A DNA stretch of 53,108 nucleotides, from IMG/VR virus record IMGVR_UViG_3300008267_006330, positions 1-53,108 of that record; one strand, given 5' to 3'. Positions within the stretch are counted from its first letter, which is position 1, and every line of letters begins with the position of its first letter. The DNA is from a virus. The notes under the pieces are model-generated. The model made no database searches, was not told the DNA's origin, and was given only the letters and a program-made list of their open reading frames with translations. The translations under genes and the position numbers were made by a program. This document shows positions 4,879 to 53,108 of the stretch, in pieces.

Positions 4879-5188
4879 GTGGCAATAGCGCCGCCATCTT
4901 GTCCACAAGCTCATCTGCTGTGTATGTTGGGCTTAGGTGTTTGAAGTCTGGATGCCAGCTTGCATAAGAATCACATCCAGTGCTAACAAGCGGAAGCTCT
5001 TCAAACGTTTTGTACAAGTGTACACTCTTTGCCACTTCGTCTGCTTCGGGGCTCTTCTCCCCGGGCTTGCATCCAAAACCTGAGCAGGTAAAGTTACAGC
5101 CAAACATACGCAAGAAAATACTTGGTACGCCCACATAACGACCTTCGCCTTGTGCTGAATAAAATAGTTCACTTACTTTGAATTTCAT
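4814..5188 (-). CDS. queE: QueE (7-carboxy-7-deazaguanine synthase) N-terminal fragment
   Basis: The start MKFKVSELFYSAQGEGRYVG is the QueE opening. Cys31 and Cys35 (GCNFTC) plus Cys72 (STGCDSYASWH) probably form the 4Fe-4S site with an insertion; Cys40 is an alternative ligand. QueE converts 6-carboxytetrahydropterin to CDG using SAM. The recognisable part stops at LLPHGNWQQPNGNP, after which the frame reads unrelated residues to a stop. The protein lacks GGEP and everything after it, so this product alone should be inactive. Confidence 0.8.
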   Translation of the reverse strand: MKFKVSELFYSAQGEGRYVGVPSIFLRMFGCNFTCSGFGCKPGEKSPEADEVAKSVHLYKTFEELPLVSTGCDSYASWHPDFKHLSPTYTADELVDKMAALLPHGNWQQPNGNPARAWIASYYI

Positions 5189-22332: not shown

Positions 22333-22370
22333 GCCGCCCACTCGGTCCTAAGGCTGAGTTAGTGGGCCGC
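22333..22370. repeat. Hairpin at the 3' end of the LysM protein gene
   Basis: GCCGCCCACT (22333-22342) and AGTGGGCCGC (22361-22370) pair with one mismatch around an 18-base loop that holds CCTAAGG. The stem spans the stop codon region of the 964-aa gene. No T-run follows on the minus strand, so it may protect a 3' end rather than terminate. Confidence 0.4.
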
Positions 22371-25253
22371 TTTCCGGCTGTGTTCTCTACGACGTTGTGC
22401 GCCAACTTGTGTCACATGTTCAAGTATCTGGTTGCGAATAGCAAATGCTGATTCGTTTACAGCACCGTACTTGGTAAATGTTTGATCAACAAATTGTTTG
22501 ATGCGAGCAACGTCTTCTTTGGTCTCAACCATTTGCAACATTTCTGCTACTGGTTTTGCTGTGGCCTGTGCAATACGTTGGGCTAGTTTTGCCTGTTCGT
22601 CTGGTGTTGGGCCACCTGTGGTTACTTTGGTACCAGCAGGAGCTGCTGTGGGCGCGGGTGCAGGAGTAGTTTTCATACCTGGGACACCAGTCATAGGCTT
22701 GACGCTCATAGTAGTTTTGCCATACCCTGTGGGACCACCTGCAAAGTTAGCTGTCTTTGCAGGAGTAGATTTAGCATACTTTTCCATGCCAGGCATCTTG
22801 AAGACATTACCAGCGTTGAATCCTGCAGGACTACCAGCAGGAGTGTTAGTAGCTGTTGGTGCAGGTGCTGTGTTTGTTGCTGTGGTATCAGTTGCCGCGG
22901 TGGCTTGGGCATTGCGTTCAGCTCGTCTAGCTTCAAGATCGTCCACGGTCCAGCGTTGACCTGTCTTGGGATTGATATTGTTAAATGGCATCAATCGTTG
23001 TGCGCCACCAGTACGGGCCTGCGGCTCAGCTTTGGTAGGATCAGTTGGTGTGGTTGGTTCAGCAGAGACTGGCAGTCCCATCTTTTCGTACACGCCGTTT
23101 ACAACGCCGATTGGCACCCCTTGCTTGACCAACCAAGCAGACAGTTGGTCTGAATCACTGGGCTTGCCGGCCTGGTGCCAGTTCATCTTGAGCTTTTCTT
23201 TGGTCACATTGGTAGTAAGCTGATGCCCAAGGTTGCCTATGACACTGCCAACTTTTTTAACTCCCTTGTCCAAGTAGTCAAGTCCTTTGCCAAACCAGCT
23301 CTTTTTAGCAGGATCTGCGGGGGTGTATGGTGCGTCAGGTGCATCAGGGCGATAAAGATCGGGCAGTTCTTCACGACCAGGTCCTGTTGGTGTAGTGTTA
23401 ACAGGTGCAGTAGGTGCAGTTGGCTTTATGCGTGGCACAGTAATAGTTCCTGGATCACCAGGTTTGAGGTTTCGAGGATCGTCTGGTTTAGTTGACAAGT
23501 CCCAAGGAGCATCAGCTTCTACTGCCGCTTCTCCAACTCTGCGAATGTTTTCAAAAACTGTGTAAACACCCAATGGTGTCAATGTTGTGAGCTTTTGATC
23601 GATCAGTTTGTCCACAGGCAGTTGACGCATTTTAACTGTGCGTGTAAATTCTGTTGCTTCTCGCACTGCACCCACCATGGCGGCCTTGGCTTTCATGGTA
23701 GCAATCTGTTGTGCCGCCTGAATTGCTCTGGCACTGGGCTCAGCACCGTACCTGGCAATTTCTTGTGCATAGATCTGTTGATACACAGGGCTGTTGTAAA
23801 TTTGTTGTGCAGTCACACCGCCGAGTGTGCCAGCGCCGCTGGTTGTGCCAGCGACCGCGTCGGCTGGGAATTTTGGAAAGTAAGCCACACCGTTGTGAAC
23901 GTAGCCTGTGACTTCTTGTCCACCGTAAGGAATCTTGATCATTTCTCCACCAACTGGAAGTCTTGGTTGAAATTGACCACCCTGCGGGAACACTGATGCT
24001 TTGATAGTTTCGCCAGATGGTAATGTTACTGTACCTGAATTTGTGGCTGGATCAAATGACAGTGGACTACTTGTTGATGCACCTGCCGCACCACCAACGC
24101 CGCCCATGTCAGCATCCATGGCCGCAAATTCTTTGTCAAACGCCGCCTGACTAAACACATTGTCCGCCGGCGCAGGTCCAGGTGCACCAGGACCGCCTAG
24201 CAATTCTGGACCTTGTGGAGTAGGCGTACTACCTTGCCACACTGATCCAGTGTTGGGACCACTTGGTGGCAATTGTAGTTCTGTACCAGGGGGTAGTTTG
24301 TTCCAGTTTGTAATTTGTGGGTTCATTGCTTCAAGGTCTTTGAACGGAACTCCTTGCGCTTGAGCAATAAACCCGCCTTGATCGCCAGGCATTACAGTGT
24401 ATGTACCACCATCTACAGGAACGCTGGCACCAGAAGTACCTCCGCCTGCACCTTGATAAACTTGATCTGCTGCGTCAAGACTGCCGGCACTGGCATCACT
24501 TGGTGCTGGTTGGCTACCAAATGCGCTGGCAATTTTTGATGCAGCCCAGGCAGTGGCAGCCGCTCCACCGGCCTTGAGTGCAATATCTGAAAACTTCTCG
24601 CCCTTGACGGCCGCATCCAACCCATAGATCAAAGCAGCCACGGCTGGCAAACCAGCGCCGCCAGTGGCTAAACCAGTGATAGCTACCAATGCACCCTTAG
24701 CTAGACCAGCTGTTTTAGGATATTCTTTGGCCAGCATGCGATATTTGTTAATGGCCTGCATGACAATGCCTTTTTGGCCACCAGTAAGATCAGCCAGCGC
24801 ATCTGTGGCTTTGTCATAGGCCACATCAACTAAAGAAACAGGAGTAGAACTTTGGATGCCGCTCCAGACACCTTTTAGTGCATCAGCCACACCGCCTGCA
24901 AAATCCATGGTGGTATCTTTGCCACGACCCAGGAATGTACGATTGGCACCTATAACTTTAAAGTTGCGATACACTGGATCTTCCAGAAGCATGGCTTCGT
25001 CCAACTTGCTTTGTTTACCCTTTTTGGCACGGTATTCGTCTTGTGCCTTCTTAACACGTGCCTGGTCGGCACGTAGTCTACGTTGATCTGGATCCATGGA
25101 GTCAGGATCATCTGGATGGCGTCTTGGAATAGGACCACCCGATGGCTTTGGCCGGCGTGGTATGTCACCTGGACGGTCATAATCAATACCTGGCAGGTCG
25201 TATGGGCCACCTTCTTGGAGGGGCTTGGACATGAATAATTGATCTACTATCAT
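22359..25253 (-). CDS. Very long LysM-containing virion-type protein, 964 aa
   Basis: The protein starts MIVDQLFMSKPLQEGG, whose LQE could be a T4 prohead-protease-type site (L/I-x-E). Residues 60-90 are charged and helical, about 183-215 are hydrophobic and Gly/Ala-rich, and about 283-329 form a LysM-like module (YTVMPGD...IAQAQGVPF..LEAMNPQITNWNKLPPGTEL). Long Pro/Thr/Ala/Gly-rich linkers follow. LysM binds peptidoglycan-type glycans, so a virion or internal protein acting at the cell wall is plausible. The exact role is unknown. Confidence 0.68.
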   Translation of the reverse strand: MIVDQLFMSKPLQEGGPYDLPGIDYDRPGDIPRRPKPSGGPIPRRHPDDPDSMDPDQRRLRADQARVKKAQDEYRAKKGKQSKLDEAMLLEDPVYRNFKVIGANRTFLGRGKDTTMDFAGGVADALKGVWSGIQSSTPVSLVDVAYDKATDALADLTGGQKGIVMQAINKYRMLAKEYPKTAGLAKGALVAITGLATGGAGLPAVAALIYGLDAAVKGEKFSDIALKAGGAAATAWAASKIASAFGSQPAPSDASAGSLDAADQVYQGAGGGTSGASVPVDGGTYTVMPGDQGGFIAQAQGVPFKDLEAMNPQITNWNKLPPGTELQLPPSGPNTGSVWQGSTPTPQGPELLGGPGAPGPAPADNVFSQAAFDKEFAAMDADMGGVGGAAGASTSSPLSFDPATNSGTVTLPSGETIKASVFPQGGQFQPRLPVGGEMIKIPYGGQEVTGYVHNGVAYFPKFPADAVAGTTSGAGTLGGVTAQQIYNSPVYQQIYAQEIARYGAEPSARAIQAAQQIATMKAKAAMVGAVREATEFTRTVKMRQLPVDKLIDQKLTTLTPLGVYTVFENIRRVGEAAVEADAPWDLSTKPDDPRNLKPGDPGTITVPRIKPTAPTAPVNTTPTGPGREELPDLYRPDAPDAPYTPADPAKKSWFGKGLDYLDKGVKKVGSVIGNLGHQLTTNVTKEKLKMNWHQAGKPSDSDQLSAWLVKQGVPIGVVNGVYEKMGLPVSAEPTTPTDPTKAEPQARTGGAQRLMPFNNINPKTGQRWTVDDLEARRAERNAQATAATDTTATNTAPAPTATNTPAGSPAGFNAGNVFKMPGMEKYAKSTPAKTANFAGGPTGYGKTTMSVKPMTGVPGMKTTPAPAPTAAPAGTKVTTGGPTPDEQAKLAQRIAQATAKPVAEMLQMVETKEDVARIKQFVDQTFTKYGAVNESAFAIRNQILEHVTQVGAQRRREHSRKAAH

Positions 25254-26268: not shown

Positions 26269-26431
26269 GTTTATTCCTTTTGTATTCCTTGGGCGTGTTA
26301 GGCGTAGGATCAGTTGTATATTTACCACTTAACAGTGATCCGCCTGATCTTGACACGGTGCCCATGGCCATGCTTACCGGGGCTATACCGCCGGCTGTGG
26401 TGGTTTCTGTGATGAATTCTTGAGCTCTCAT
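26231..26431 (-). CDS. Small protein with capsid-targeting-like N-terminus, 66 aa
   Basis: It starts MRAQEFITE, close to the T4 internal-protein targeting peptide MKTYQEFIAE. I-T-E fits the prohead protease consensus (I/L-x-E), so the mature part could begin with TTTAGGIAP. The rest is a short polar sequence ending in a basic tail (KEYKRNKHARGRFK). It overlaps the Dps gene. I infer an internal head protein; its activity is unknown. Confidence 0.6.
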   Translation of the reverse strand: MRAQEFITETTTAGGIAPVSMAMGTVSRSGGSLLSGKYTTDPTPNTPKEYKRNKHARGRFKNSPGN

Positions 26432-26733
26432 TAGGCTTTTTCCGGAGTATATATTTGCACACGACCTTCGCGATCAATAATAGCCGGTCCGGTGTCCACA
26501 CGCAGATTATGAACTTTGATTCTAGCATGTTCAGGCTCGACCAGTTCGTATCTTATGGTATAGTGCCCTGGGCCAGCCTGAATTGGAATATACTCTTCAA
26601 GATATTGTTCGCGCCAGATCCATGAGCGTTCTGTGAACAATTCGTCATTCACATAGCATCTATAACGTGGAGGATCGCCTTGTTTCCACTTGACATATAC
26701 ATCACACACCGCCATAACAAATTCAGTTTGCAT
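26431..26733 (-). CDS. Conserved phage-type beta-rich protein, about 100 aa
   Basis: The core (VYVKWKQGDPPRYRCYVNDELFTERSW, then YIPIQAGPGHYTIRYEL and IKVHNLRVD) reads as a small beta-sandwich, like uncharacterised proteins of T4-like marine phages that I think of as carbohydrate-binding-type folds, without proof. ATG codons at 26733 and 26715 are both possible. The first lies exactly five bases after a late-promoter element, which would make its mRNA leaderless. Confidence 0.62.
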   Translation of the reverse strand: MQTEFVMAVCDVYVKWKQGDPPRYRCYVNDELFTERSWIWREQYLEEYIPIQAGPGHYTIRYELVEPEHARIKVHNLRVDTGPAIIDREGRVQIYTPEKA

Positions 26734-26738
26734 AAAGA

Positions 26739-26746
26739 TATTTATC
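26739..26746 (-). promoter_or_regulatory. Late-promoter-like element, leftward
   Basis: GATAAATA on the minus strand matches TATAAATA at seven of eight positions. The 5-base spacer TCTTT ends at the ATG (26733), so a T4-type start site would fall on the A of the ATG. Confidence 0.5.
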
Positions 26747-26758
26747 AAAAACTACGCC

Positions 26759-26766
26759 TATAAATA
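26759..26766 (+). promoter_or_regulatory. T4-type late promoter, rightward
   Basis: TATAAATA is a perfect T4 late consensus. The ATG of the radical SAM gene follows after five bases (TCAGC), with no ribosome binding site, and no other start codon lies nearby upstream in frame. A T4-like start point would give a leaderless mRNA. Confidence 0.65.
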
Positions 26767-26771
26767 TCAGC

Positions 26772-27758
26772 ATGCTGAAACTTCAACACATACAATCGGT
26801 GCATGTGGAACTTACCACACGATGCAATGCCCGATGTCCCATGTGCATGCGCAACTATCGCGGCAGTGATTTTAATTCTGGCTACCCAGATGCAGAACTG
26901 TTGTTGGAACACATAAAACATATATTGACTCCAGAAGTATTAGAGCAGGTTGAACATGTGAATTTCAATGGTAATCTTGGGGATTTTGGTCTAGCGCGAG
27001 ACGCAGCAGAAATTGTTGAATATCTAGTGGTCAACCGCACAGGAGTTTCAATCAACACCAATGGCAGCATGCGATCCAAGTCCTGGTGGAGGCGCCTGGC
27101 TTTACCAAATGTCACTATTGGATTTGCTCTAGACGGCCTGTCGGATACTCACAATTTATATAGACAAGACACTGATTGGAATCGTGTGATTGAAAATGCC
27201 ACTGCATTTATAGCCGCAGGTGGCCGGGCGATTTGGCGCTTTGTACCTTTTGATCACAATCGGCATCAAGAAGCAGAATGTCGAAGGCTGGCTAAAGAAA
27301 TGGGATTTATTGATTTTGAAAACATCTATGATGGCAGAGATTCAGGCCCAGTATACACACGTACTGGAGAGTTTAGTCACTGGCTTGGTCCTGTGGGCGA
27401 TCCTCCGCCCATCAAAGATATGTTGCAAAGCCATATCACTTGGTATGACAGCAAGACTGTAAAGATATCTAAAGATACTGCCACTCTCAACTTGCGTTGC
27501 CGTCACAAAATGGCCAAAGAAATATATCTTGCCGCAGATGGAACTGTGTATCCATGTTGTTACTTGGGGTTCTACCCGCACAGCATGAATCATCCTGGCA
27601 ACCAAGAACTTGCTCAGTTGGTTGCTGAAAACAACGCACTTGAATATCCACTTGAACATTGTTTAGACTGGTTTGACCGTGTAGAACAATCCTGGAGCCA
27701 GGCCAGTATACGTGATGGTAGAACATTTCAATGCGTGAATACATGCAATCAAACATAA
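26772..27758 (+). CDS. Radical SAM/SPASM-type protein
   Basis: The 328-aa protein has VELTTRCNARCPMC, the CxxxCxxC cluster motif at Cys18, Cys22 and Cys25, then VSINTNGSM and IGFALDGLSDTH from the radical SAM barrel. A C-terminal SPASM-like cysteine region contains YLAADGTVYPCCYLG and late Cys residues (CVNTC). Such enzymes act on peptides, sugars or cofactors. It leads a plus-strand operon with two glycosyltransferase-like genes, so a carbohydrate substrate is a reasonable guess. Confidence 0.8.
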   Translation: MLKLQHIQSVHVELTTRCNARCPMCMRNYRGSDFNSGYPDAELLLEHIKHILTPEVLEQVEHVNFNGNLGDFGLARDAAEIVEYLVVNRTGVSINTNGSMRSKSWWRRLALPNVTIGFALDGLSDTHNLYRQDTDWNRVIENATAFIAAGGRAIWRFVPFDHNRHQEAECRRLAKEMGFIDFENIYDGRDSGPVYTRTGEFSHWLGPVGDPPPIKDMLQSHITWYDSKTVKISKDTATLNLRCRHKMAKEIYLAADGTVYPCCYLGFYPHSMNHPGNQELAQLVAENNALEYPLEHCLDWFDRVEQSWSQASIRDGRTFQCVNTCNQT

Positions 27759-39137: not shown

Positions 39138-40055
39138 TTATTTGCTGTTGGCCACTTTCTTAGATTTTTTACTACTGGCCACCACTTCGGCCACGGGTTC
39201 TGCTTGTAACACTTCTGCAGGCACATCGTGTCCGCCTTGTGGTGCCATTGGAACTGCGGTGTTGGTAGGAGGATTGATCAGGGTTGCAAAGTCTTGCATG
39301 AGTTTTTCTTGTGCATCGTGTGCAAATGTATATGTGCCTGTGTGGCGTAGCAACACACGTTTGTCCACCCATACTTGACCGCCAATATCGCGCCAGTTTT
39401 CACAGAATGTCCAGTCTTCTGAGTAGTAGCGACCTTCTCGAACAGCAGTGTCAAAGTAGGTTTTCATGTAGGGATCCAGCGCAGGGTCTAGACCAATGTC
39501 GTTCTTGAAGGGCTTGGTAGCAGGGTGTGCATCAAGTTTTTCAAACACGTCACGTTTGATCAACATAAAGCCTGTGCCTGTTTTTGATACTTCAATCAAG
39601 TTGTCTTCGGGACCTGGCTCAGGTTGTCCGGGAATGCCGTTCACACACCACTTGATGGGCAGGCTTTTCATGGGATACAAACCACCGATAACGTCTTTTT
39701 GTGCATCCAACATTACCAACAGGTGCCAGGGTTCCCAGCCAATGTCAGCGTCGATAAACATCAAGTGGGTTGATTCTTTTGTGTGCAAAAACTTAGCAGT
39801 TAATGTATTTCTAGCACGGCTAATCAAACTTTCGTTGGTCATGGTTTCCACAGTCCAGTCCAAGCCCAATTGGCGAGCTGTGTTGGCCCACTTGATATAG
39901 CTCATGAAAGTGGATTCTGTAAGCTGACCACCATAGCAGGGCATGCACATGTGGACTCGAGTGGTTTTCAAATAGTCAAGGTTCACTTGAATATTCATTT
40001 GACCTGTTTGTGCAGGATTGCTTGGGGCGGTTGTTGAGGGTTGGGCGTCAGCCAT
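39138..40055 (-). CDS. GT-A-type glycosyltransferase-like protein
   Basis: After a polar 20-residue N-terminus, the 305-aa protein has TRVHMCMPCYGGQLTE, STHLMFIDADIGWEPW with a D-x-D motif, and YYSEDWTFCENWRDIGG, like phage proteins related to Anp1/GT-A transferases. The C-terminus is an Ala/Lys-rich tail (SSKKSKKVANSK). A GGAG site and a late-promoter element precede the ATG. Possible substrates are phage structural proteins or host glycan. Confidence 0.7.
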   Translation of the reverse strand: MADAQPSTTAPSNPAQTGQMNIQVNLDYLKTTRVHMCMPCYGGQLTESTFMSYIKWANTARQLGLDWTVETMTNESLISRARNTLTAKFLHTKESTHLMFIDADIGWEPWHLLVMLDAQKDVIGGLYPMKSLPIKWCVNGIPGQPEPGPEDNLIEVSKTGTGFMLIKRDVFEKLDAHPATKPFKNDIGLDPALDPYMKTYFDTAVREGRYYSEDWTFCENWRDIGGQVWVDKRVLLRHTGTYTFAHDAQEKLMQDFATLINPPTNTAVPMAPQGGHDVPAEVLQAEPVAEVVASSKKSKKVANSK

Positions 40056-42472: not shown

Positions 42473-43123
42473 TTATTTAGCACGAGCTATAATGGGCAGG
42501 GTCTTTCTGACTACACCGGGCACAGCCATGCTGATCAAGAAATCGGCATTGGGTTCGTTGTGGTCCACAAAATAGTTGCTCATCAACCACATTCTACTGC
42601 CTTTTACTAATTTGGCAAAACCCGGGCCTTGTCTAAACATATCAGGCCTGGCGGCAAAATAGCGCCGTAGGGTCGACATGTCGTCGTTTGAAAGCCAGCG
42701 TTCCTTAAAGTATGTTCTAAATGCATGCCGTGGATTTTTCAATGTTACAGCGTCTGGATTCATGTTTACCAGGGCTTGATTTACGTACATAATCTCGCCT
42801 GTAGGTATGGTGTTTATGTCTTGAAAATCTTCAGGACTGTTGGTGTACAGCCATATGCCGTTGCCACACACTACTTTCTTGTAAGGATGTGCTCGGGCCA
42901 ACAAATAATCGCAGGCATGATGCAATGTTTTTTCAACTTCGGGGGTGATGTGTCTTGCACCACCACGGCGAGCAATCCATTCGTTTCTGTAGCGAATACC
43001 TTGATTGATACGCTCATGTTTGAGCTCGCGCAGGAAACTAGCCTCAGGCAGAAGAAACAAGATCACATACTGCCACTTGTGAAAGTACAAAGTACTACGT
43101 GGCACTAAAACAGATTTATACAT
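42473..43123 (-). CDS. Conserved phage-type hypothetical protein, 216 aa
   Basis: I chose MYKSVLVPRSTLYFHKWQ (43123). The protein has a helical N-terminal half (ASFLRELKHERINQGIRYRNEWIARRGG), a central ACDYLLARAHPYKKVVCGNG and a C-terminal DFLISMAVPGVVRKTLP. It resembles uncharacterised proteins of T4-like marine phages. It overlaps the ClpA-like gene end by eight bases. Function unknown. Confidence 0.62.
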   Translation of the reverse strand: MYKSVLVPRSTLYFHKWQYVILFLLPEASFLRELKHERINQGIRYRNEWIARRGGARHITPEVEKTLHHACDYLLARAHPYKKVVCGNGIWLYTNSPEDFQDINTIPTGEIMYVNQALVNMNPDAVTLKNPRHAFRTYFKERWLSNDDMSTLRRYFAARPDMFRQGPGFAKLVKGSRMWLMSNYFVDHNEPNADFLISMAVPGVVRKTLPIIARAK

Positions 43124-44399
43124 CTGGGAATCTGATAATGCCATCATCTGCTACTACAGGTACCACTCGTTTTACAACATCAAACACAACTTTATCGTCT
43201 GCCAAGTCTGCTGTGATGTCACATTCGGCCAGTCGATCAAACAAGATCTTCTTACTCAGTGGTACACGAATCAGTTCATCAATCTTACGTGCAAGTGGCC
43301 GCGCACCCATCTTGCTATCATAGCCCCGGTCAGCCAGCATGTCAACAACCGATTCGGATAAATTGAGGTGTATACCTTTGGTTAGTAGACTTGTCTTGAG
43401 TTCATCAACAAACTTAACAACGACTTTCTTGATCGCCAAAGTATCCAACTTGGTGAATTTAACAATTTGATCGATACGGTTGCGTAGTTCGGGCTTGAAA
43501 AATTCCTTGACAGCTTTGTCGTCCTCACCAGTCTTTTCAAAGTTGCCAAAGCCAATGTTATTTGCTTCACTGTCACGTGCTCCTAGGTTGGATGTCATGA
43601 TGATGATACAGTTTTTGCAGTTGGCTTTTTTACCATTGCTACTGGTAATGACACCTTCGTCCAGCATTTGAAGCAGGATGTTGGTGACGTCGGGGTGAGC
43701 CTTCTCTATCTCATCAAACAAGATCACACTGAACGGATTCTTGCTGAGATCGGAGATTAGTTTGCCACCGCCCACGTTGCCATCTTCAAAGCCCACATAG
43801 CCCGGGGGAGCGCCAATCAAACTGCTGACACTGTGACGCTCTTGATATTCACTCATGTCATACTTGAGCAGTTTCATATCCAAGTTGTCACTCAGCAGTC
43901 TAGCCAGTTCTGTTTTACCTGTGCCAGTGGGCCCCAGGAACAAGAAGCTGGCCATGGGACGTTTGTCATTGGCAATGCCGGCAAAGTTGATGTACACACG
44001 TTCCAATACTGAGTCCACTGCTGAATCTTGGCCATACAACTTCTGCTTGATGTTGCCTTCCAGTTCCACAATCTTTGTGCTACGCTCGTTTTGCAGTTTG
44101 TCTGCAGGTACACCTGTTACTCGTGCCAGTTGTTCTTCGATCATGGCCTTGGTAATGGTCACGTTACCTAGATCCTTCACACGCTCTCTAGCACAGGCCG
44201 CATCAATCAAGTCAATGCTCTTGTCGGGATTCTTGCGATCGTGTATGTAACGATTGGCCAGTTCCACTGCGGCAGTCATGGCTTCAGTATCAATCATCAC
44301 ATTGTGAAACTGTTCCAGGCGTGGTGAGAGTCCGATTAGAATCTGTTCAGTGGTGTTCGCATCCGGTTCGTCTATCGACAACCTGTAGAAGCGGCGCAT
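43116..44399 (-). CDS. ClpA-like ATPase, C-terminal part (frame-broken)
   Basis: This frame holds the end of the first AAA+ module (RRFYRLSIDEP, SIDLIDAACAR) and a complete second module: GPTGTGKTELA (Walker A, near residue 155), VILFDEIEKAHPD (Walker B), a TSNLGA sensor and GYDSKMGARPLAR. It is the second half of a ClpA/ClpB-type unfoldase. The reading frame is open upstream to PWEEYYESFEKDRALMRRF, which normally follows directly on the N-terminal half. The first ATG (44399) is inside that conserved stretch, so it need not be a true start. Confidence 0.8.
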   Translation of the reverse strand: MRRFYRLSIDEPDANTTEQILIGLSPRLEQFHNVMIDTEAMTAAVELANRYIHDRKNPDKSIDLIDAACARERVKDLGNVTITKAMIEEQLARVTGVPADKLQNERSTKIVELEGNIKQKLYGQDSAVDSVLERVYINFAGIANDKRPMASFLFLGPTGTGKTELARLLSDNLDMKLLKYDMSEYQERHSVSSLIGAPPGYVGFEDGNVGGGKLISDLSKNPFSVILFDEIEKAHPDVTNILLQMLDEGVITSSNGKKANCKNCIIIMTSNLGARDSEANNIGFGNFEKTGEDDKAVKEFFKPELRNRIDQIVKFTKLDTLAIKKVVVKFVDELKTSLLTKGIHLNLSESVVDMLADRGYDSKMGARPLARKIDELIRVPLSKKILFDRLAECDITADLADDKVVFDVVKRVVPVVADDGIIRFPDV

Positions 44400-45351
44400 T
44401 AACGCACGATCCTTTTCGAAACTCTCGTAATATTCTTCCCATGGTAATAGCGGGTTTCAGCATGTTAGCAAAGTCCAAACTGCTTTGCGAACCTGCGCCA
44501 GCACCCTTCATGGTGTGTGCTTCGTCCACAAACAAGATACAGTTCTTCTTGGCTTCCAGGGCTGCAATCACTGCCTTGAACTTTTCTTCAAACTCGCCAC
44601 GGTACTTGCTTCCTGCCAGCAAGTCGCCCACTTCTAGACTCCATACTTCTGAGCCCTTGATAAATTCGGGCACACGGCCTGCATGAATCTCTTGTGCTAA
44701 GCCTTCAATGATGGCAGTTTTGCCCACACCAGGGTCGCCCACCATGAGCACGTTGGCTTTGAAACGGCGTGCCAACACAGTGATCATTTCATGCAGTTCT
44801 TCTGAACGACCAATTAGTGGCTCAAGGCGATTGTTTTGAGCCATCAGCGTGAGATTGGTACAGTACTCTGTAAGGATCTCATTGGCTTGATCTTGACTCA
44901 TTGAGCTTTCACTTGCTGACGCTGACTTGTAGTGCTTTTGCCAGTGTTCCACAAACTCTTGTTTTTTTACACCGTACTTGAGCAAGAAGTAGTGTGCATG
45001 ACTGTTGCCTTCGCTCATGATACTCAAGTAGATATCAATGGTGCTCATGGCACGACGTCCCGTGAACATGACTTGTACGTTGGCACGATTGAACAAGCGT
45101 TCCAGTGCTGTGGTTTTACGAGGTGGTGTGTCTGGAATTTTACCAACCAGTCCAGTTTGACTCACTAGATAGTGTTCTACTTCTTGTTCCATCTTGTCAA
45201 CATCTGCCCCAAAACTTGTGAGAGTTTTTCTAAATGGGGGGTGTCGTACCATGGCCAACAACAAGTGTTCTGTGACCACGTACTCGTGCGTGAGATTGGA
45301 GGCAATCTTAACTGCTTGCTCCACAATGCCGGCGATTTCAGGATTGTTCAT
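44347..45351 (-). CDS. ClpA-like ATPase, N-terminal part (frame-broken)
   Basis: Residues 1-140 form a Clp N-domain (HEYVVTEHLLLAMVRHPPF). Walker A GDPGVGKT is at 205-212, LLAGSKYRGEFEEKF follows, and Walker B CILFVDEAHT is at 271-280. It is coherent up to LDFANMLKPAIT; the next residues are out of frame with the C-terminal part. About ten residues expected between them (normally the G-D-L-K-V/I-x-A-S/T-T region) are missing. A clear promoter precedes the ATG. Unfoldases could recycle stalled phage proteins or remodel host factors. Confidence 0.82.
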   Translation of the reverse strand: MNNPEIAGIVEQAVKIASNLTHEYVVTEHLLLAMVRHPPFRKTLTSFGADVDKMEQEVEHYLVSQTGLVGKIPDTPPRKTTALERLFNRANVQVMFTGRRAMSTIDIYLSIMSEGNSHAHYFLLKYGVKKQEFVEHWQKHYKSASASESSMSQDQANEILTEYCTNLTLMAQNNRLEPLIGRSEELHEMITVLARRFKANVLMVGDPGVGKTAIIEGLAQEIHAGRVPEFIKGSEVWSLEVGDLLAGSKYRGEFEEKFKAVIAALEAKKNCILFVDEAHTMKGAGAGSQSSLDFANMLKPAITMGRILREFRKGSCVNAPLLQVVDRRTGCEHH

Positions 45352-46254: not shown

Positions 46255-46479
46255 TTATTTCTTTTTGGGCTCAGGAACTTTTTCAGCTCCTTCCAGTTTC
46301 TTGTGTTGCTTGACTTCTTTACAGTTCTGTTTGACTTTTTTAGTTTTGGGATCAATTACGCCCTTGCCTTCTTTGTCTTTAACATCGACACAGACTCGTT
46401 TGGTTTCTTTCTTGGGCTCTTCAGCAATGACAAATTGACTACCTAGGGCCAAGGTTAATGCAATTAATAAGTGTTTCAT
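46255..46479 (-). CDS. Small secreted Lys-rich protein, 74 aa
   Basis: A Sec signal peptide (MKHLLIALTLALGSQFVIA) precedes a very charged 55-residue mature part rich in Lys and Glu, with two Cys (RVCVDV and KQNCKEV) that could form a disulfide. It lies four bases after the holin gene and before a strong terminator. It may act in the periplasm during late infection; no known spanin motif or lipobox is visible. Confidence 0.65.
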   Translation of the reverse strand: MKHLLIALTLALGSQFVIAEEPKKETKRVCVDVKDKEGKGVIDPKTKKVKQNCKEVKQHKKLEGAEKVPEPKKK

Positions 46480-46483
46480 GATT

Positions 46484-46981
46484 TTATCTTTCTGGGAATG
46501 GTGGAATCACAGGGGCGGGTTTGCCCCCGAATCCTGTGACAACTTCTGCAGACGCTGGCGCTCCAAATCCTGAACTGCTACCAAAGCTGCTTGGTGCTGT
46601 TGGAGTAGTACCCCAGCTTGGTACTGGCGTAAAACTTGTGCTTGGTGCTGGGGTACCAAATCCTGTTGAGGGTGTGCCTGGTGTTTGTGCTCCGCCATTG
46701 TTTGCTCCATTTAGTTTTTCTTGTGTGCGACCAAATGCCGCAATACCTAAAACTGCACCCATTGCAATGTGGAATAGTCCAGCACCTTGTAAGGTCAGTG
46801 GGTTCCATTGACTTGTAACTTGTCCGTGATTCAACGACTGTAGTAGACTCCATAACACTGGAAATACCACCATGTCCATGGTACATACTAACATATACAT
46901 CCAGCCCATCATTGGACGCCATTTTGAGTTCATCCAGTCTTCTTTTTTCTTTTCTGATTCGCTTTTGACTTCTTCTGCCAT
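46484..46981 (-). CDS. Holin (3TM, gene-transfer-agent-holin-like)
   Basis: The 165-aa protein has a charged N-terminus, then WRPMMGWMYMLVCTMDMVVFPVLW and LQGAGLFHIAMGAVLGIAAFGRTQEK, the pattern of the GTA_holin_3TM family (R-P-x-x-G-W ... R-x-x-E-K). The tail is long and Gly/Pro/Ser/Thr-rich. Holins permeabilise the inner membrane at lysis. A perfect late promoter and an AAGGAG site lie upstream, and it is divergent from the csgF gene. Confidence 0.8.
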   Translation of the reverse strand: MAEEVKSESEKKKEDWMNSKWRPMMGWMYMLVCTMDMVVFPVLWSLLQSLNHGQVTSQWNPLTLQGAGLFHIAMGAVLGIAAFGRTQEKLNGANNGGAQTPGTPSTGFGTPAPSTSFTPVPSWGTTPTAPSSFGSSSGFGAPASAEVVTGFGGKPAPVIPPFPER

Positions 46982-47004
46982 GTTGGCTCCTTGTTGTTAT
47001 AAAA

Positions 47005-47012
47005 TATTTATA
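47005..47012 (-). promoter_or_regulatory. T4-type late promoter for the holin
   Basis: TATAAATA on the minus strand is a perfect late consensus, 23 bases upstream of the holin ATG, with AAGGAG between. Confidence 0.75.
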
Positions 47013-47057
47013 TCAAAATTAAACAACAATAGTGTCGGTTATTGATGAACCAATCAT

Positions 47058-47065
47058 AGTAAATA
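47058..47065 (+). promoter_or_regulatory. Late-promoter-like element for the csgF operon
   Basis: AGTAAATA matches six of eight late-consensus bases, 17 bases before the csgF ATG. A TGAGG ribosome site follows. With the divergent holin promoter it forms a two-way late control region in about 100 bases. Confidence 0.45.
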
Positions 47066-47082
47066 CCATATGAGGCTTTTCT

Positions 47083-47523
47083 ATGAAAACAACAATAACA
47101 ACATTAGCCTTGATGCTGGTTGCAGCTGGAGTTTCTGCCACTGAACTAGTACATCAATTCAATTCGCCAGCTTTTTCAGGAGTCGGTTACAGTAGTCACG
47201 TGCTAACAATCGAGCAACTGGAAGCCACACGCCGGCAAAAACTACGAGAAGAAGAAGCAAGCAGATTAGCCAAAGCTGAGCTTGCAGCCAAACAAACCAA
47301 CATAGCTAAATTCCTAGTCAACGTAGAAAGTCGTATCTATGCTCAGTTGAGCAAACAGTTGGCAGACTCGTTGTTCAGCGGCGGCGGCACCACGGGTAGC
47401 ATGGATTTTCAAGGCACCAACATCAGCTGGGTCAAAACCTCTACTGATGTAACATTGACCATTCTGGAAAGCAATGGCAATCGCACAGAGATCACCGTGC
47501 CACTAGCGAGTTTTGCATTTTGA
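47083..47523 (+). CDS. csgF: CsgF-like curli assembly factor
   Basis: The 146-aa protein (E. coli CsgF has 138) has a signal peptide ending near VSA and the mature N-terminus TELVHQFNSPAFSGVGYSSH, which fits the CsgF F-x-N-P-x-F-G peptide that inserts into the CsgG channel. The C-terminal domain (STDVTLTILESNGNRTEITVPLASF) matches the CsgF beta-sheet. CsgF sits on CsgG at the outer membrane and holds the nucleator. Its stop overlaps the csgG ATG. Confidence 0.8.
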   Translation: MKTTITTLALMLVAAGVSATELVHQFNSPAFSGVGYSSHVLTIEQLEATRRQKLREEEASRLAKAELAAKQTNIAKFLVNVESRIYAQLSKQLADSLFSGGGTTGSMDFQGTNISWVKTSTDVTLTILESNGNRTEITVPLASFAF

Positions 47524-48347
47524 TGAAAGTACTGTTTTTGTCATTGTTGCTGATGATAAGTGGATGTGCCACTTTGGATCAAACACAGTTTGATGTGCAA
47601 CCTCCCAAACTGGTACCACGACAGAACTTGCTGACTACATTACCTGAGTTGGATGGGCCAAGAATACCCATTGCTGTGTACGGATTCACAGACAAAACTG
47701 GTCAGAAAAAAACCAATGACAAACTGGCGCTGTTTAGCACAGCAGTCACACAAGGTGCCGAGGTATTCCTGATCAAGGCCTTGCAGGACACTCCCAACTG
47801 GTTCACTGTGGTTGAACGTGTGGGCTTGGACAATCTTATCAAGGAGCGACAGCTTATACGCAATCAACGTGAAGTTTACGAAGGTAAAGATGCCAAGCCG
47901 CTCAAACCCTTGTTGGTGGCTGGACTCATGATTGAAGGTGGCATCATTGGCTACGACACCAACATAACGTCAGGTGGCACTGGTGCCAGAATACTGGGCA
48001 TTGGTGCCAGTACACAATATCGAGTGGATGAGATTGTTATTTCCATGCGAGTTATTTCAGTCAACACCGGGGAAGTGTTGCTGAATACGGCTGTGAGCAA
48101 AACTGTGTTTAGCACAGCTCACAATCAGGGAGTTCTCAAATTTGTTGATGTTGGCACAACCAGCATTGAACTTGAGAACGGGGCTGCTGTGAATGAGCCC
48201 ACAACATACGCTGTTCGAATAGCCATCGAACAAGCGGTGTACGAAATGATCCAAGAAGGAGTCAAACGCAAACTTTGGTCATACAAAAAGGGTACCAGCC
48301 CAAGGAGTGAGGATGAGGATAGTAACTCGCCCACAAAACAAAAATGA
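47523..48347 (+). CDS. csgG: CsgG-like outer-membrane curli channel
   Basis: The 274-aa lipoprotein (E. coli CsgG has 277) has a lipobox ISGC at about residues 12-15 (MKVLFLSLLLMISGCATL). CsgG features follow: RIPIAVYGFTDKTGQKK, WFTVVERVGLDNLIKERQLIR, LLVAGLMIEGGIIGYDTN, the channel-loop region ARILGIGASTQYRVDEIVISMRVIS, and a VYEMIQEGVKRKLW C-terminal helix. CsgG forms a nine-subunit beta-barrel that exports curlin without ATP. Confidence 0.88.
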   Translation: MKVLFLSLLLMISGCATLDQTQFDVQPPKLVPRQNLLTTLPELDGPRIPIAVYGFTDKTGQKKTNDKLALFSTAVTQGAEVFLIKALQDTPNWFTVVERVGLDNLIKERQLIRNQREVYEGKDAKPLKPLLVAGLMIEGGIIGYDTNITSGGTGARILGIGASTQYRVDEIVISMRVISVNTGEVLLNTAVSKTVFSTAHNQGVLKFVDVGTTSIELENGAAVNEPTTYAVRIAIEQAVYEMIQEGVKRKLWSYKKGTSPRSEDEDSNSPTKQK

Positions 48348-48970
48348 AAATTACAAGATCTCTCAAAGGGACAATATTTGCACTGGGCATGATGGCGTTA
48401 TTCCATGTTCAAGCTTCAAATGAAATTTATATAGAGCAAGTGGGCGATGATGCCACTGTGACTTTAAAACAAGCAGGCAGCAACAACACCATTGGCAGTG
48501 CTCTAGCGCCGGCCTTTATTGGCGGCGGTCAAAATGTTGTATACATTGAACAGTCAGGCAGTAGCAATCAACTGGCCATGTTGGTCAACGGTGCTGGCAC
48601 CACTGTAACGTCTACAATCATTGGTGATAGCAACCAACAGACCATAACTTGCGGAACCAGTGTCAGTGCCAGCTGTAGTGGATCTGCAATCACGCATACC
48701 ATAACAGGGGACAACAACGATGTGCAAAGTATCCTGGGTACCAATGGTGGAGCACACACCAGTAACATCACAGTGTTGGGTGACTACAACCATGTGACGC
48801 ATAGTAGTTCAGGATCTGGAGCCAACTCAGCCACAATCAATGTCACTGGGTCAGGTTCTGGCGCTACTCCAAATGCAATCACTGTGACACAAAGTGGTAT
48901 GAATACTCAAAGTGCAACCGTCAATGCTTCGGGCAATAACATTAATATCAGTATTATTCAGTCTGACTAA
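48344..48970 (+). CDS. Curlin-repeat-like secreted protein
   Basis: After a signal peptide ending HVQA, the 208-aa protein contains repeated strands of the type IYIEQVGDDATVTLKQAG, VVYIEQSGSSNQLAML, TIIGDSNQQTI, TITGDNNDVQSI, ITVLGDYNHVTH and ITVTQSGMNTQSATV. The x-x-Q-x-G-x-x-N spacing is typical of CsgA/CsgB amyloid repeats. It lies directly after csgG (ATGA), so it is the probable export substrate. One protein may serve as both nucleator and fibre. Confidence 0.75.
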   Translation: MKITRSLKGTIFALGMMALFHVQASNEIYIEQVGDDATVTLKQAGSNNTIGSALAPAFIGGGQNVVYIEQSGSSNQLAMLVNGAGTTVTSTIIGDSNQQTITCGTSVSASCSGSAITHTITGDNNDVQSILGTNGGAHTSNITVLGDYNHVTHSSSGSGANSATINVTGSGSGATPNAITVTQSGMNTQSATVNASGNNINISIIQSD

Positions 48971-50000
48971 CGCCTGGGCTGGAGTGGGCAAGGTGACTGA
49001 ACAAACTGGTCCTACTGAAATAGTACGGGCTCGAAAAAGCATATCCAGTGCTGTAAATACCACAGTGGAAATGAACGATACAATTGTCACAGCTCGATCC
49101 CGAGCTGAATTGACTTTTGATGATGCTACCAAAGTCAAAATAACCGAACAGTCAAAGCTGATAATTGATGACTTTGTGTATGATCCCAAACAAGGTACAG
49201 GTAAGTTGACCATGAAAGTGGCCCTGGGCACGGCTAGATATGCTTCGGGACAGATTGCTAAAAATTCACCTCAACAGGTTGCGGTCAGCACACCCACAGC
49301 TTCTATTGCTGTACGTGGCACAGACTTTTCAATGACTGTGGATGAGCTGGGTCGCAGTCTCATAATGCTGTTGCCCAGTTGTGATGACAAGACATGTGTG
49401 ACGGGCGCTATTGAAGTCAGCAATGAAGCTGGCAGTATTCTAATGACACAGGCCTATCAAGCCACACTGGTTTCCACAACTGACACTGCACCCACAAGAC
49501 CAGTTGTGTTAAACATTGATCAGGCCAACATCAACAACATGTTGATTATCAGCCGACCCCGAGAAATTACAGACGAACAAAAAGACTCCCGAAGAGACAC
49601 ACGCACTGCCCTGGACGTTAATTTTTTAGATCGAGACTTTTTGAAGCCAGCGGATCTAGGCAATGAGTTGGACGCATCTAATAGACTGGATCGCAACGCC
49701 CTAGATGATGAGTTGTTGCCCAACGTGCTGGATGCTGTGAATGCGGCCTTGGCAGCCACTCAAGAAGCCATGAGCACCACCCTGAGCATGTTGCCTGGCT
49801 ATGATGCCAGTTCAGGCCTGACGTGGCGAGTAAATGATCAAGAACAACTAATATTGACCAAATACAGTAACCATGTGTTTGAGCTAACTGTGCCCCGTGA
49901 GCAAGGCGCAATATTGGATCTACAACAGGATGGCATTCCTGTGTACCAGAAAATTAACTCAGGTGGCACCACCACAATAACTGTTGTCCAAAGTCAATAA
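48924..50000 (+). CDS. FecR-domain periplasmic protein
   Basis: The ATG at 48924 gives a signal peptide (MLRAITLISVLFSLTNAWA) and a 358-aa protein; a GTG at 48912 is another possible start. Residues 20-130 match a FecR domain: NDTIVTARSRAELTFDDATKVKI, IDDFVYDPKQGTGKLTM and VSTPTASIAVRGTDFSM. The remainder is a helical Asp-rich region. FecR domains often pair with CHASE2 cyclases; here one lies at the convergent end. The start lies inside the curlin-like gene, as in an operon. Confidence 0.8.
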   Translation: MLRAITLISVLFSLTNAWAGVGKVTEQTGPTEIVRARKSISSAVNTTVEMNDTIVTARSRAELTFDDATKVKITEQSKLIIDDFVYDPKQGTGKLTMKVALGTARYASGQIAKNSPQQVAVSTPTASIAVRGTDFSMTVDELGRSLIMLLPSCDDKTCVTGAIEVSNEAGSILMTQAYQATLVSTTDTAPTRPVVLNIDQANINNMLIISRPREITDEQKDSRRDTRTALDVNFLDRDFLKPADLGNELDASNRLDRNALDDELLPNVLDAVNAALAATQEAMSTTLSMLPGYDASSGLTWRVNDQEQLILTKYSNHVFELTVPREQGAILDLQQDGIPVYQKINSGGTTTITVVQSQ

Positions 50001-50027: not shown

Positions 50028-50309
50028 ATGGGAGATATTTTCAAACTGATTGGTGATCTAGGGTTTCCGATAGCAGTTGCGCTTGCTGGCGGCTACTTTG
50101 TGTATCTCACAATCAAGTTGTTACTGGCAGGTGTGCTAAGTGCAATCAAAGGCATGGCTGGCATTATTACTGCACTAGACAATCGAGTCAGAACCATGAA
50201 TCACGACGTCATACGCATTGATACCATTGTGTCAAATGCACTAGGACTCAAGCCCGACACTGATCGTATTGCACGAGCCGACGGCAAGAACGATGCCCGG
50301 AGAGACTGA
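50028..50309 (+). CDS. YvrJ/BhlA-like small membrane protein, 93 aa
   Basis: One N-terminal membrane segment (LGFPIAVALAGGYFVYLTIKLLLAGVL) is followed by an amphipathic helix (IITALDNRVRTMNHDVIRID) and a polar tail. This fits bacteriocin-type holin-like proteins (YvrJ/BhlA/UviB). It resembles the protein at 50692-51060. The late-type leader equals that of the holin. It may oligomerise in the inner membrane; the role is not proven. Confidence 0.6.
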   Translation: MGDIFKLIGDLGFPIAVALAGGYFVYLTIKLLLAGVLSAIKGMAGIITALDNRVRTMNHDVIRIDTIVSNALGLKPDTDRIARADGKNDARRD

Positions 50310-50530: not shown

Positions 50531-50699
50531 TTGGGATCTGGGACCAGGATATATTGTACCAGACGCTGAATTAAACACCGAGAAACTGGGCTGGAAACAT
50601 GGACAGTTCTGGCAGATGATCGAAGTCAATGGAAAGTTAAGATTGCACCAGGTAGATCCTATAGTGCAATTTGTTTTAGAAGGATCTAAAAATGAGTGA
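50511..50699 (+). CDS. Small conserved phage-type protein, 62 aa
   Basis: The start MLHLDYNWDLGPGYIVPD at 50511 is preferred to the longer frame. The sequence (LNTEKLGWKHGQFWQMIEVNGKLRLHQVDPIVQFV) looks like a recurring short protein of T4-like marine phages. It overlaps both neighbours. It has no membrane segment. Confidence 0.62.
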   Translation: MLHLDYNWDLGPGYIVPDAELNTEKLGWKHGQFWQMIEVNGKLRLHQVDPIVQFVLEGSKNE

Positions 50700-51060
50700 A
50701 GTAGTTGATTTAGTAAACAAGTACGGATTTCCTATTGTGATGGCTGTGGGCATGGGCTACATCATCAAGTATGTGTGGGAATGGGCTACTAAAGAAGTCA
50801 AGCCGGTTATCAATGATGCCAACTCTGTGTTGATTGCTCTGATTGATCGCATTAGAATGTTGGACAACGATTTGATTCGGTTGAATCAAAAAGTAAACAC
50901 AGTGTTGCATCTACGTGGTAAAATGATTGAATCAGATCGTGTTATGGAAACACAAAAAGTTGAGGCAGCGGCCAATGCCAAGTTTCACGAAGCCATGGAC
51001 GAAGTAGACAAGACTGCGGTTGACAACAAAAAATCAGCAGGTGCTGGCGGCAGTAATTGA
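50692..51060 (+). CDS. YvrJ/BhlA-like membrane protein paralogue, 122 aa
   Basis: It shares the layout of the gene at 50028: YGFPIVMAVGMGYIIKYVWEWA as a membrane anchor, then an amphipathic helix (VLIALIDRIRMLDNDLIRLNQKVNTVLHL) and an Ala/Glu-rich tail. The L-D-N/R-x-R-x-M/L-D-x-D-x-I-R repeat matches its paralogue. It ends one base before the convergent cyclase gene. It may act as a holin-like or channel-forming protein. Confidence 0.6.
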   Translation: MSEVVDLVNKYGFPIVMAVGMGYIIKYVWEWATKEVKPVINDANSVLIALIDRIRMLDNDLIRLNQKVNTVLHLRGKMIESDRVMETQKVEAAANAKFHEAMDEVDKTAVDNKKSAGAGGSN

Positions 51061-51061
51061 A

Positions 51062-53108
51062 TTACTTTTCGTGGGCAACAAACTCACCGTTCCAGTTACT
51101 GGGTAAGTGTTGTTGCTTCATGAACTCACAGCGTTCAATCCACATTTTGTAATACTTGTCCATTTGCCCGCCAAATTTGCCGTGCAATTCTTCGCACAAG
51201 ATAACAGCCGCGTCAAACTGTTTCTGACGGTATAACTCATGCATCTTGTTGTGTGTAGAAAGTTCTTTGGTATAATCTGCACCCTTGGTACGTAGTACTG
51301 TGTAGATCAAGTCTGCTACTGTCTTACCTTTTGGTTGTAAGTTGTCTAGCAACAAATAGAAGAAATCATCTCGAGTTCTGTTGTATGTTTCAGCACCAAC
51401 AATGGCCAACACACCATAGGCTTTACAACGTGCTTCAAGTCGAGCGGCAGTTGAAACCATATCGCCTAATATGTCATAGCTGTGTCTGTCAGTACTGCCC
51501 ATCTCCCCGATAAAGCCTATGCCTGTGTTACAGCCCCAGCCCATGGCTGCAGGAGGTAGGCCTTGTGCTTCCATTAGTTTAGTGTATTCATCAACAGCAT
51601 CCAACATCTCTAAACCAACACGAACAATAGTTCTAGCATGGTTAGGATCTTCAATTGGAGCGCCATGTATGTGCATAGAGGCATCGCCCACATACTTGAT
51701 AATCATACCTTGGTTATCCAGCATGGGTTGACTAATTGCATCCATATATCCGTTCATGTATCCGTTCATGTACCGGCCAAGTCCAGCAACATCATCACCG
51801 TAGTGTTCGCCAATTGGTGTAAACCCACGCAGGTCACTGAACATGACACTTACATCTTTTCGTACACCACGCTTGATCAAGTCTGGATCTTTTTGCAGTA
51901 GCTCTACAACTTCCTTGGAACAGTAGCCTGCAAATTGTTTTTTGATTGCTTGTTTTTGGAGGAACTCTGAGACGAATTTAACTCCGTAGGCGTGTAGCCC
52001 AACGAGGACAATGCCCGCGACTGGGACGGTAACGTCAAATAACCAAAGGTAATTGACAAAACTAAAGTAACTGCCATACGCAAGTACAGCGCATATTCCA
52101 ACCAACGATGCAAGACCAACATAAACCCACCTTGTAAGAATCAATAATAACACACCTGCTGCCAAGATAACAAGTATTTCGACTCCGTCGGCGTAGTCAG
52201 GACGCACAATATTTGTGCCGCCAGCCACGGTTCCTAGTACACTGGCTTGCAAATAGTGCGGATAGACTTCTCCTCTTGCAGTTGCGACGGGGTTGTTGAG
52301 CCCGCGAGCTGTGAGTCCGACAATGACAATTCCACCTTGGAAGTCCTTTGGCAAATCAGCCAAGGAATGTTCTTGCGGCTGGGATGACCAATCCACCCAT
52401 ATTCTACTGTAACTGTCTGTTGGAATTTTTCCAAACTGTGGAATTCTAACTGCTTCAACACTTCCGTCATTGACTCGGACCTGGAAGCTGGGATCTCCGG
52501 CAAGGACTCTAAGCGTTTCAAGACTGATGGAGGGATAGACTTGTTCTCCAACTGTGATGACTTGGGGGACTCGGCGTACAACGCCGTCGATTTCAGGCAA
52601 AGTGTTAACAATGCCAATGCCGCTTGCTGTTTCATTTAAGGACCTCACGTTGGGTTGAATACTTTGATATGCTATGCCTGGCAGGCCAGTTCCTATTACA
52701 GAAACTCCGGGTCTGTAGGGTGAGTACTTGGACACAGTGTCTTCGTTGGTGGCCATGTGTGGCAACACTACTAAACTTTCTTTGAGTTGCCGAGCCAGGG
52801 CAGAGTCTTGCCCAAAACGATCCACATCAGGCATGAATATGTTAAACACAATCACACCAGCATTACGATCTTCTAACTGACGAATAATGTCAGCATACTG
52901 ATTTCTAGGAAAGGGAAACTGTCCACGCTGAGCAATGGCGCGATCGTCAATGTTGACCACATGAATTTGCTCGCTTACAGTGGTCGCACGATCAGTGATC
53001 AGCGTGTCAAAATAGCGCAGTCTTATACTTTCCACAAACGCAGGATCAGCAATTCTTATACTTACGATAAGTGCCAATGTTAGCAATGCTGTCCATGGAC
53101 TTGTTATG
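51062..53108 (-). CDS. CHASE2-class III adenylate cyclase, 5' end beyond window
   Basis: The visible 681 residues begin in an N-terminal membrane helix. A CHASE2 sensor (about 20-290, counting from a TTG at 53086; IVFNIFMPDVDRFGQD) and three membrane helices (301-370) follow. The class III cyclase domain (410-600) has Asp418 (MFSDLRGF), Lys464 and Asp468 (KYVGDA), Asp538 (YDILGD) and Arg549. The Lys/Asp pair predicts ATP as substrate. The transition-state Asn is Ser545 (VSTAAR for VNxAxR). No stop is seen at the right edge. A second messenger signal from a phage is unusual. Confidence 0.88.
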   Translation of the reverse strand, partial: ITSPWTALLTLALIVSIRIADPAFVESIRLRYFDTLITDRATTVSEQIHVVNIDDRAIAQRGQFPFPRNQYADIIRQLEDRNAGVIVFNIFMPDVDRFGQDSALARQLKESLVVLPHMATNEDTVSKYSPYRPGVSVIGTGLPGIAYQSIQPNVRSLNETASGIGIVNTLPEIDGVVRRVPQVITVGEQVYPSISLETLRVLAGDPSFQVRVNDGSVEAVRIPQFGKIPTDSYSRIWVDWSSQPQEHSLADLPKDFQGGIVIVGLTARGLNNPVATARGEVYPHYLQASVLGTVAGGTNIVRPDYADGVEILVILAAGVLLLILTRWVYVGLASLVGICAVLAYGSYFSFVNYLWLFDVTVPVAGIVLVGLHAYGVKFVSEFLQKQAIKKQFAGYCSKEVVELLQKDPDLIKRGVRKDVSVMFSDLRGFTPIGEHYGDDVAGLGRYMNGYMNGYMDAISQPMLDNQGMIIKYVGDASMHIHGAPIEDPNHARTIVRVGLEMLDAVDEYTKLMEAQGLPPAAMGWGCNTGIGFIGEMGSTDRHSYDILGDMVSTAARLEARCKAYGVLAIVGAETYNRTRDDFFYLLLDNLQPKGKTVADLIYTVLRTKGADYTKELSTHNKMHELYRQKQFDAAVILCEELHGKFGGQMDKYYKMWIERCEFMKQQHLPSNWNGEFVAHEK

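Follow-up and report, generated by a model that had tools for sequence, protein, structure and literature searches.

Curli (type VIII secretion) cassettes are known from pelagimyophages and from methylophage Melnitz (HTVC008M, EXVC044M), whose genes, according to the accessible parts of PMC7029224, PMC9004378 and PMC9599517, are arranged in the order csgF, csgG, curlin repeat, FecR and cyclase. What viral curli genes do, and when they act, is debated, and published proposals comprise lysis control, sibling capture, defence against superinfection, and uptake. For Melnitz, a role of CsgGF in lysis has already been proposed, CsgG being likened to a pinholin or to a secretin that times lysis (PMC9004378, in the part available), and the prediction of late promoters failed in the pelagimyophages (accessible text of PMC7029224). 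A second precedent is provided by genes e, soc, 49 and I-TevI of phage T4, where, as described in excerpts of PMC3014915 and PMC2988022, the late promoter lies within a hairpin, so that RNA reading through from early transcription is locked, whereas late RNA is free.

The stretch of DNA analysed here, referred to as the window, is an IMG/VR virus record of 53,108 bases, which represents a fragment. It contains a curli cassette with the same gene order as the pelagimyophage and Melnitz cassettes. The window CsgG is 48–49% identical to the CsgG proteins of these cassettes, the two small proteins and the protein families are shared with HTVC008M and Melnitz, and the cyclase matches theirs. There are also differences. 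The closest relatives of the window are mostly found on IMG/VR contigs, which reach 364 kb, whereas the known cassettes are carried by phages of 140–150 kb; the small phrog_18771 proteins follow FecR in the window but precede csgF in HTVC008M and Melnitz; and the cyclase gene of the window, unlike that of the known cassettes, is located on the other strand.

Curli cassette of the window and its relatives

The csgF gene (47083–47523, plus strand; PF10614, E = 6.7e-14; phrog_35372) is predicted to encode an outer-membrane curli chaperone and partner of CsgG, with a signal peptide and a conserved N-terminal P-x-F motif that is evident from the alignment; a comparison of CsgF with PDB sequences did not yield a meaningful match. 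The adjacent csgG gene (47520–48347, plus strand; PF03783, E = 2.9e-53; match to the PDB sequence of CsgG, E = 1.7e-50) codes for a putative outer-membrane lipoprotein pore carrying the lipoprotein signal LLLMISGCA near its N terminus. Its open reading frame opens with TTG, but the likely start is the ATG at 47523, which overlaps the csgF stop codon. The names csgF and csgG, given in the original prediction from the sequence, are thus correct. That prediction ended before the next two genes, which code for a curlin-repeat protein (48344–48970, plus strand), likely the secreted substrate, and for a FecR-domain protein (48912–50000, plus strand; PF04773, E = 2.1e-10). Two small phrog_18771 cassette proteins, assigned by PHROGs, are encoded at 50028–50309 and 50692–51060 (both plus strand), followed on the minus strand by a gene for a CHASE2 protein with a class III adenylate/guanylate cyclase domain (51062–53107; PF05226, E = 1.5e-36; PF00211, E = 5.7e-13), which runs off the window.

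The match of the curlin-repeat protein to PF07012 lies exactly at the cut-off (20.7 bits). The protein shows invariant Q, G and N positions and a repeated G..N/Q pattern, and its AlphaFold2 model is a solenoid of stacked strands (pLDDT 86, pTM 0.79). A Foldseek search with this model retrieved six viral models at E≤0.001, of which four bear the name 'Curlin associated'; among PDB folds none reached E≤0.001, the best match having an E value of 0.012.

A scan for CsgG gave 88 pattern matches, 82 of which were relatives, and the best 80 of these 82 were kept as loci L002–L081; several of them lie on contigs of 200–364 kb. Since the IMG/VR loci overlap and include several near-identical assemblies, locus counts are not independent. 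Within this set, csgG is followed by a curlin-type gene in every one of the 72 loci whose sequence extends 1.5 kb downstream, and by FecR in every one of the 63 that extend 3 kb. Since the CsgG pore always travels with a curlin-type substrate, a secretion pore is the preferred reading, and secretion of the adjacent curlin-type protein is the likeliest role of phage CsgG as judged from gene content. A csgG gene 41% identical to that of the window is also present in a Salmonella phage record (OR851715.1, positions 226–942), an unannotated entry of 1499 bases that may correspond to a bacterial fragment.

Late promoter elements and the leftward gene

Upstream of csgF, the window contains two facing promoter elements. 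An exact T4-type late element, TATAAATA, is located at 47005–47012 on the minus strand and precedes the ATG (46981) of the leftward gene 46484–46981 by 24 nt, and a related element on the plus strand, AGTAAATA, has its TAAATA core at 47060–47065, 17 nt before the csgF ATG at 47083. Between their facing ends lie about 50 bp; the original prediction had placed the elements within about 100 bases. The counts in the window alone are unremarkable (TATAAATA, two versus 0.85 expected, with two reached in 20 of 100 shuffles; TAAATA, 25 versus 21.9 expected), and therefore relatives were needed to assess the motif. Over the 2163 genes of 117 non-redundant loci, the 40-nt upstream regions contain TAAATA 406 times in sense orientation versus 44 times on the opposite strand. 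Stop codons of upstream open reading frames were removed from this count, because a TAA followed by ATA could mimic the motif; 334 of the 406 sites were left, and a stop-codon artefact as the source of the enrichment is rejected. At positions –45 to –10, TAAATA is enriched 10.4-fold, compared with 10.7-fold for the Shine-Dalgarno hexamer AAGGAG and only 1.4- to 1.9-fold for TAATAA, TAAATT, TAAAAT, TAAACA and TAAAAA. A search of the large relative contigs detected a T4 gp55-like late sigma factor in 11 of 15 contigs at E≤1e-5, one match being strong (2e-21) and ten weak (2e-7 to 1e-5). On these grounds TAAATA is taken as the T4-type late promoter of the phage group, and the late promoters predicted at both genes of the window stand.

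The csgF set was enlarged by three csgF scans; three of 265 frames were dropped, having no recognisable start, and the remaining 262 were reduced to 103 by collapsing duplicates within 80 nt of the start. TAAATA is present at –70 to –6 in 72 of these 103 distinct upstream sequences, versus 12.7 expected, and in none of the 72 is it a stop codon. The motif is missing from 31 of the 103, in several cases because csgF there follows another cassette gene. HTVC008M has TATAAATA 5 nt before the csgF start and no hairpin there, and directly before csgF of Melnitz there is neither TAAATA nor a hairpin. As a bacterial control, 289 genomes of one class were searched for csgF; five matched, four of them over the cut-off, and TAAATA is absent from both upstream sequences that were readable, a number too small to count. 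Four csgF loci from the contig scan lie in bacterial MAG contigs, with TAAATA in two of the three that were read, and were left out of the counts. The T4-type elements before csgF and the leftward gene make late expression likely, and csgF is probably expressed late.

The leftward gene (46484–46981, minus strand) codes for a membrane protein of 165 amino acids with a Gly/Pro/Ser/Phe-rich tail. PHROGs labels it a holin, and its Pfam match is to GTA_holin_3TM (PF11351; 27.6 bits versus a cut-off of 24.8), covering only positions 58–122 of 123. The original description as a three-segment holin does not fit the protein, which has two hydrophobic segments (residues 29–47 and 66–84), compared with three in PF11351. 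Of 67 homologues among the best 80 of 597 relatives, which were kept as loci L082–L161 (one of these, L096, contains no complete open reading frame), 65 likewise show two segments at a threshold of 1.2, and 51 do so at a threshold of 1.6. The AlphaFold2 model consists of two helices with a mean pLDDT of 53, too poor for a fold search. In the phage collection, relatives are found in jumbo phages (PA5oct group, Phosso, Atu_ph07, NCTB): over residues 16–99 of the window protein, PA5oct gp178 (YP_010679036.1), Paride and Phosso show 33–35% identity, and Atu_ph07 29%. The PA5oct protein (108 amino acids) is annotated in the database as 'structural protein, ESI-MS/MS' and is encoded within a block of virion and tail-fibre genes with such notes, while in the window its neighbours are DnaJ and Clp genes. 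A holin function of the 46484–46981 product is thus unproven on sequence grounds.

According to the original prediction, the two promoters linked this holin with the CsgG pore. An element that precedes hundreds of genes cannot tie any two of them together, and synteny contradicts the link. With 'testable' meaning that 3 kb of upstream sequence is present, the holin-like gene lies within 3 kb upstream of csgF in four of 71 testable loci from the best 80 of 82 CsgG relatives (the window, L005, L007 and L070); TATAAATA also precedes it in L007 and in L005, the contig of which was recovered as L083 in the other scan. Conversely, csg genes are near in two of 65 testable holin-like loci (the window and L083) from the best 80 of 597, where DnaJ and Clp genes are each found downstream in 65 of 67 loci. 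Even among the ten loci with CsgG 92–93% identical to that of the window (L002–L011), eight of which have 3 kb of upstream sequence, the gene is present in two (L005 and L007), and on the long contigs of others it is located about 64–84 kb from csgG. In the large csgG contigs, the distance is 34–101 kb in 11 of 15, and the gene was not found in the other four. A functional link between the two genes is rejected on this basis; the holin-like gene does not appear to be tied to csgF, its position in the window being consistent with an accident of this lineage.

Several features of the DnaJ/Clp cluster may be mentioned. The residues G, P, A, S, T and F abound in the tail of the holin-like protein (46484–46711, minus strand), which contains on average 4.2 FG/GF dipeptides versus 1.8 in shuffled sequences (67 homologues), recalling FG-type disordered proteins. 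A Lys-rich protein of 74 amino acids with an apparent signal peptide (46255–46479, minus strand) is a conserved companion of the cluster. The Clp ATPase gene (43116–45351, minus strand) consists of two overlapping frames (44347–45351 and 43116–44399) and is a single open reading frame of about 770 amino acids in relatives such as L005, which points to a frameshift or an assembly error in the window.

Predicted pairing around the csgF promoter

In relatives of the window, TAAATA upstream of csgF sits inside inverted repeats of unrelated sequence. For a cluster test, the 72 csgF sites were grouped at 70% identity into 52 clusters, which still share ancestry; one representative of each was scored and compared with 60 versions having a dinucleotide-shuffled 5' flank, a hairpin being called significant if it folds better than all but 3 of the 60. 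Such hairpins were found in 27 of the 52 csgF clusters versus 44 of 256 control promoter clusters (odds ratio 5.2, Fisher p = 4.5e-7), and 25 csgF clusters have no significant hairpin. Hairpins of this type are not unique to csgF, as 44 control clusters carry them where about 17 would be expected by rank. Tests on smaller sets agree: a stem score of at least 7 was observed for 13 of 49 csgF promoters versus five of 447 other TAAATA promoters, and accessibility of the start region is higher for csgF leaders than for other promoters (n = 38 versus 311, p = 2e-5). With the late transcript assumed to start 6 nt after TAAATA, loss of the 5' arm makes the start region freer by 0.29 for csgF (n = 45) and by 0.16 for controls (n = 183; p = 2.9e-4). 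Pairing is maintained in different phages despite unrelated stem sequences, for example in L002, L033, L042 and L069. Whether the hairpin depends on a co-directional upstream gene was assessed by two rules; the first gave a null result (p = 0.63) and the second a weak one (22 of 40 versus one of eight; Fisher p = 0.03, rank test p = 0.17).

Among the 256 control clusters, a phrog_1574 gene of the window (39138–40055, minus strand) has the strongest promoter-in-hairpin (z = –6.5), and therefore this type of late lock may be used more widely.

The hairpin of the window itself is weak. Its predicted 5' arm TCATAG (47054–47059, plus strand) is short and would pair with CTATGA (47081–47086, plus strand), which includes the csgF ATG. 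The fold has –10.7 kcal/mol (z = –1.1), with 27 of 200 shuffles as good, and in the cluster test z is –1.4, with five of 60 as good; for comparison, the hairpin of L002 reaches –24.6 kcal/mol (z = –6.2). In the alignment, an inner GCCCC arm is present in L002 and L006 and a comparable arm in L009 and L010, while the window, L005 and L007 lack the inner arm and retain at most the TCATAG/CTATGA stem around the start codon (6 bp in the window); in L005, TAAATA is lost as well. Because csgF of the window lies behind a divergent gene, sense read-through is not expected, and so the lock may have decayed in this lineage, which is a conjecture.

The arrangement resembles that of T4 e, soc, 49 and I-TevI (PMC3014915, PMC2988022, accessible parts), where a hairpin masking the start likewise carries the late promoter in its 5' arm. 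It differs in that the putatively gated gene is the first of a secretion operon, that gating is predicted from sequence, and that the window copy is degenerate. The secretion cassette is already known, but no report of a hairpin at csgF was found in the literature searched, subscription papers and preprints lying outside that search, and the word 'hairpin' is absent from the available text of PMC9004378, PMC9599517 and PMC7029224. The promoter-in-hairpin at viral csgF thus seems to be the new part, judging from the papers searched, and worth following.

Proposed late secretion and its alternatives

We consider it probable that the window contains two independent late transcription units, which face each other by chance in this lineage. 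The leftward unit would produce a membrane protein of the separate DnaJ/Clp cluster, and the rightward unit would comprise csgF, csgG and the genes for the curlin-repeat protein, FecR, the two small proteins and the CHASE2-cyclase under a T4-type late promoter. In many relatives, the promoter lies within the inverted repeat, and read-through RNA would fold, hiding the ribosome-binding site of csgF, its start codon or both; RNA begun at the late promoter would lack the 5' arm and leave the csgF start free, so that the pore would be made only late. The most likely task of CsgG would then be to carry the neighbouring curlin-type protein through the outer membrane, giving rise to surface amyloid on the infected cell or on debris. 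That the family has conserved a late promoter, often enclosed in a hairpin masking the start, speaks for an action confined to the late phase, a prediction that is testable. T4-type late genes gated by a hairpin are few, and the secretion operon would be added to them.

The inverted repeat could instead be a DNA operator, or the terminator of the upstream gene overlapping the promoter, rather than a translational gate. In many stems, those of L030 and L009 among them, the sequence around TAAATA is nearly palindromic, and co-directional upstream genes often end 40–120 nt before csgF, which is in line with such a function. Stem sequences vary among phages, however, unlike a binding site, several stems (for example L033 and L042) extend into the start region, and the accessibility of this region shifts more than in controls. 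We therefore regard an operator or terminator as rather unlikely and prefer the translational gate.

It was originally suggested that CsgGF acts in lysis, a late, ungated pore making the outer membrane leaky and replacing or helping spanins. The late promoter at csgF and hairpin gating of the type that T4 uses for lysozyme would suit this role, and so would the lack of matches to Rz-type spanins (PF03245), the one spanin type searched for, in all 15 large relative contigs. The supporting claim that no spanin or endolysin is visible in the window holds for the 68 of 217 listed open reading frames that were run against PHROGs, but the window represents a fragment of only 53 kb, and a SleB-type hydrolase, an endolysin candidate, is encoded elsewhere in 13 of the 15 large relative contigs. 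Of the other endolysin families covered by the search, lysozyme (PF00959) and SLT (PF01464) were each found in none of the 15, and Melnitz encodes GH108 and a cell wall hydrolase. A primary function in lysis is at odds with the constant proximity of the curlin-type substrate and FecR to csgG; moreover, the supposed holin link is not conserved, the holin-like gene mostly occurring without a csg cassette nearby. Taken together, a lysis role seems improbable.

Secretion and lysis could also be combined. Since CsgG without a CsgE gate would be harmful early, the amyloid pore may have acquired a lock of the T4 lysozyme type, and the late pore would export amyloid gluing debris, progeny and new hosts together as well as weaken the outer membrane for release; we consider this speculative and quite improbable in its entirety. 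A pore serving the uptake of nutrients or cofactors in infection, as proposed in the accessible parts of PMC7029224 and PMC9599517, is still less probable, since its attractions, namely that SAR11-type hosts lack the system (same sources) and that FecR and the cyclase could be sensors, are set against a promoter that is late rather than early, a conserved curlin-type substrate and the retention of CsgF.

Some further features of the window concern promoters and genes outside the cassette. A second facing pair of elements, GATAAATA on the minus strand and TATAAATA on the plus strand, is located at 26739–26766, at the divergent junction of 26431–26748 and 26772–27758; this copy of TATAAATA is only 5 nt before an ATG. 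A protein of 964 amino acids with a LysM domain is encoded at 22359–25253 (minus strand) and is possibly a peptidoglycan-binding virion protein. The QueE-like gene at 4417–5188 (minus strand) consists of two overlapping frames, both of which match phrog_2076.
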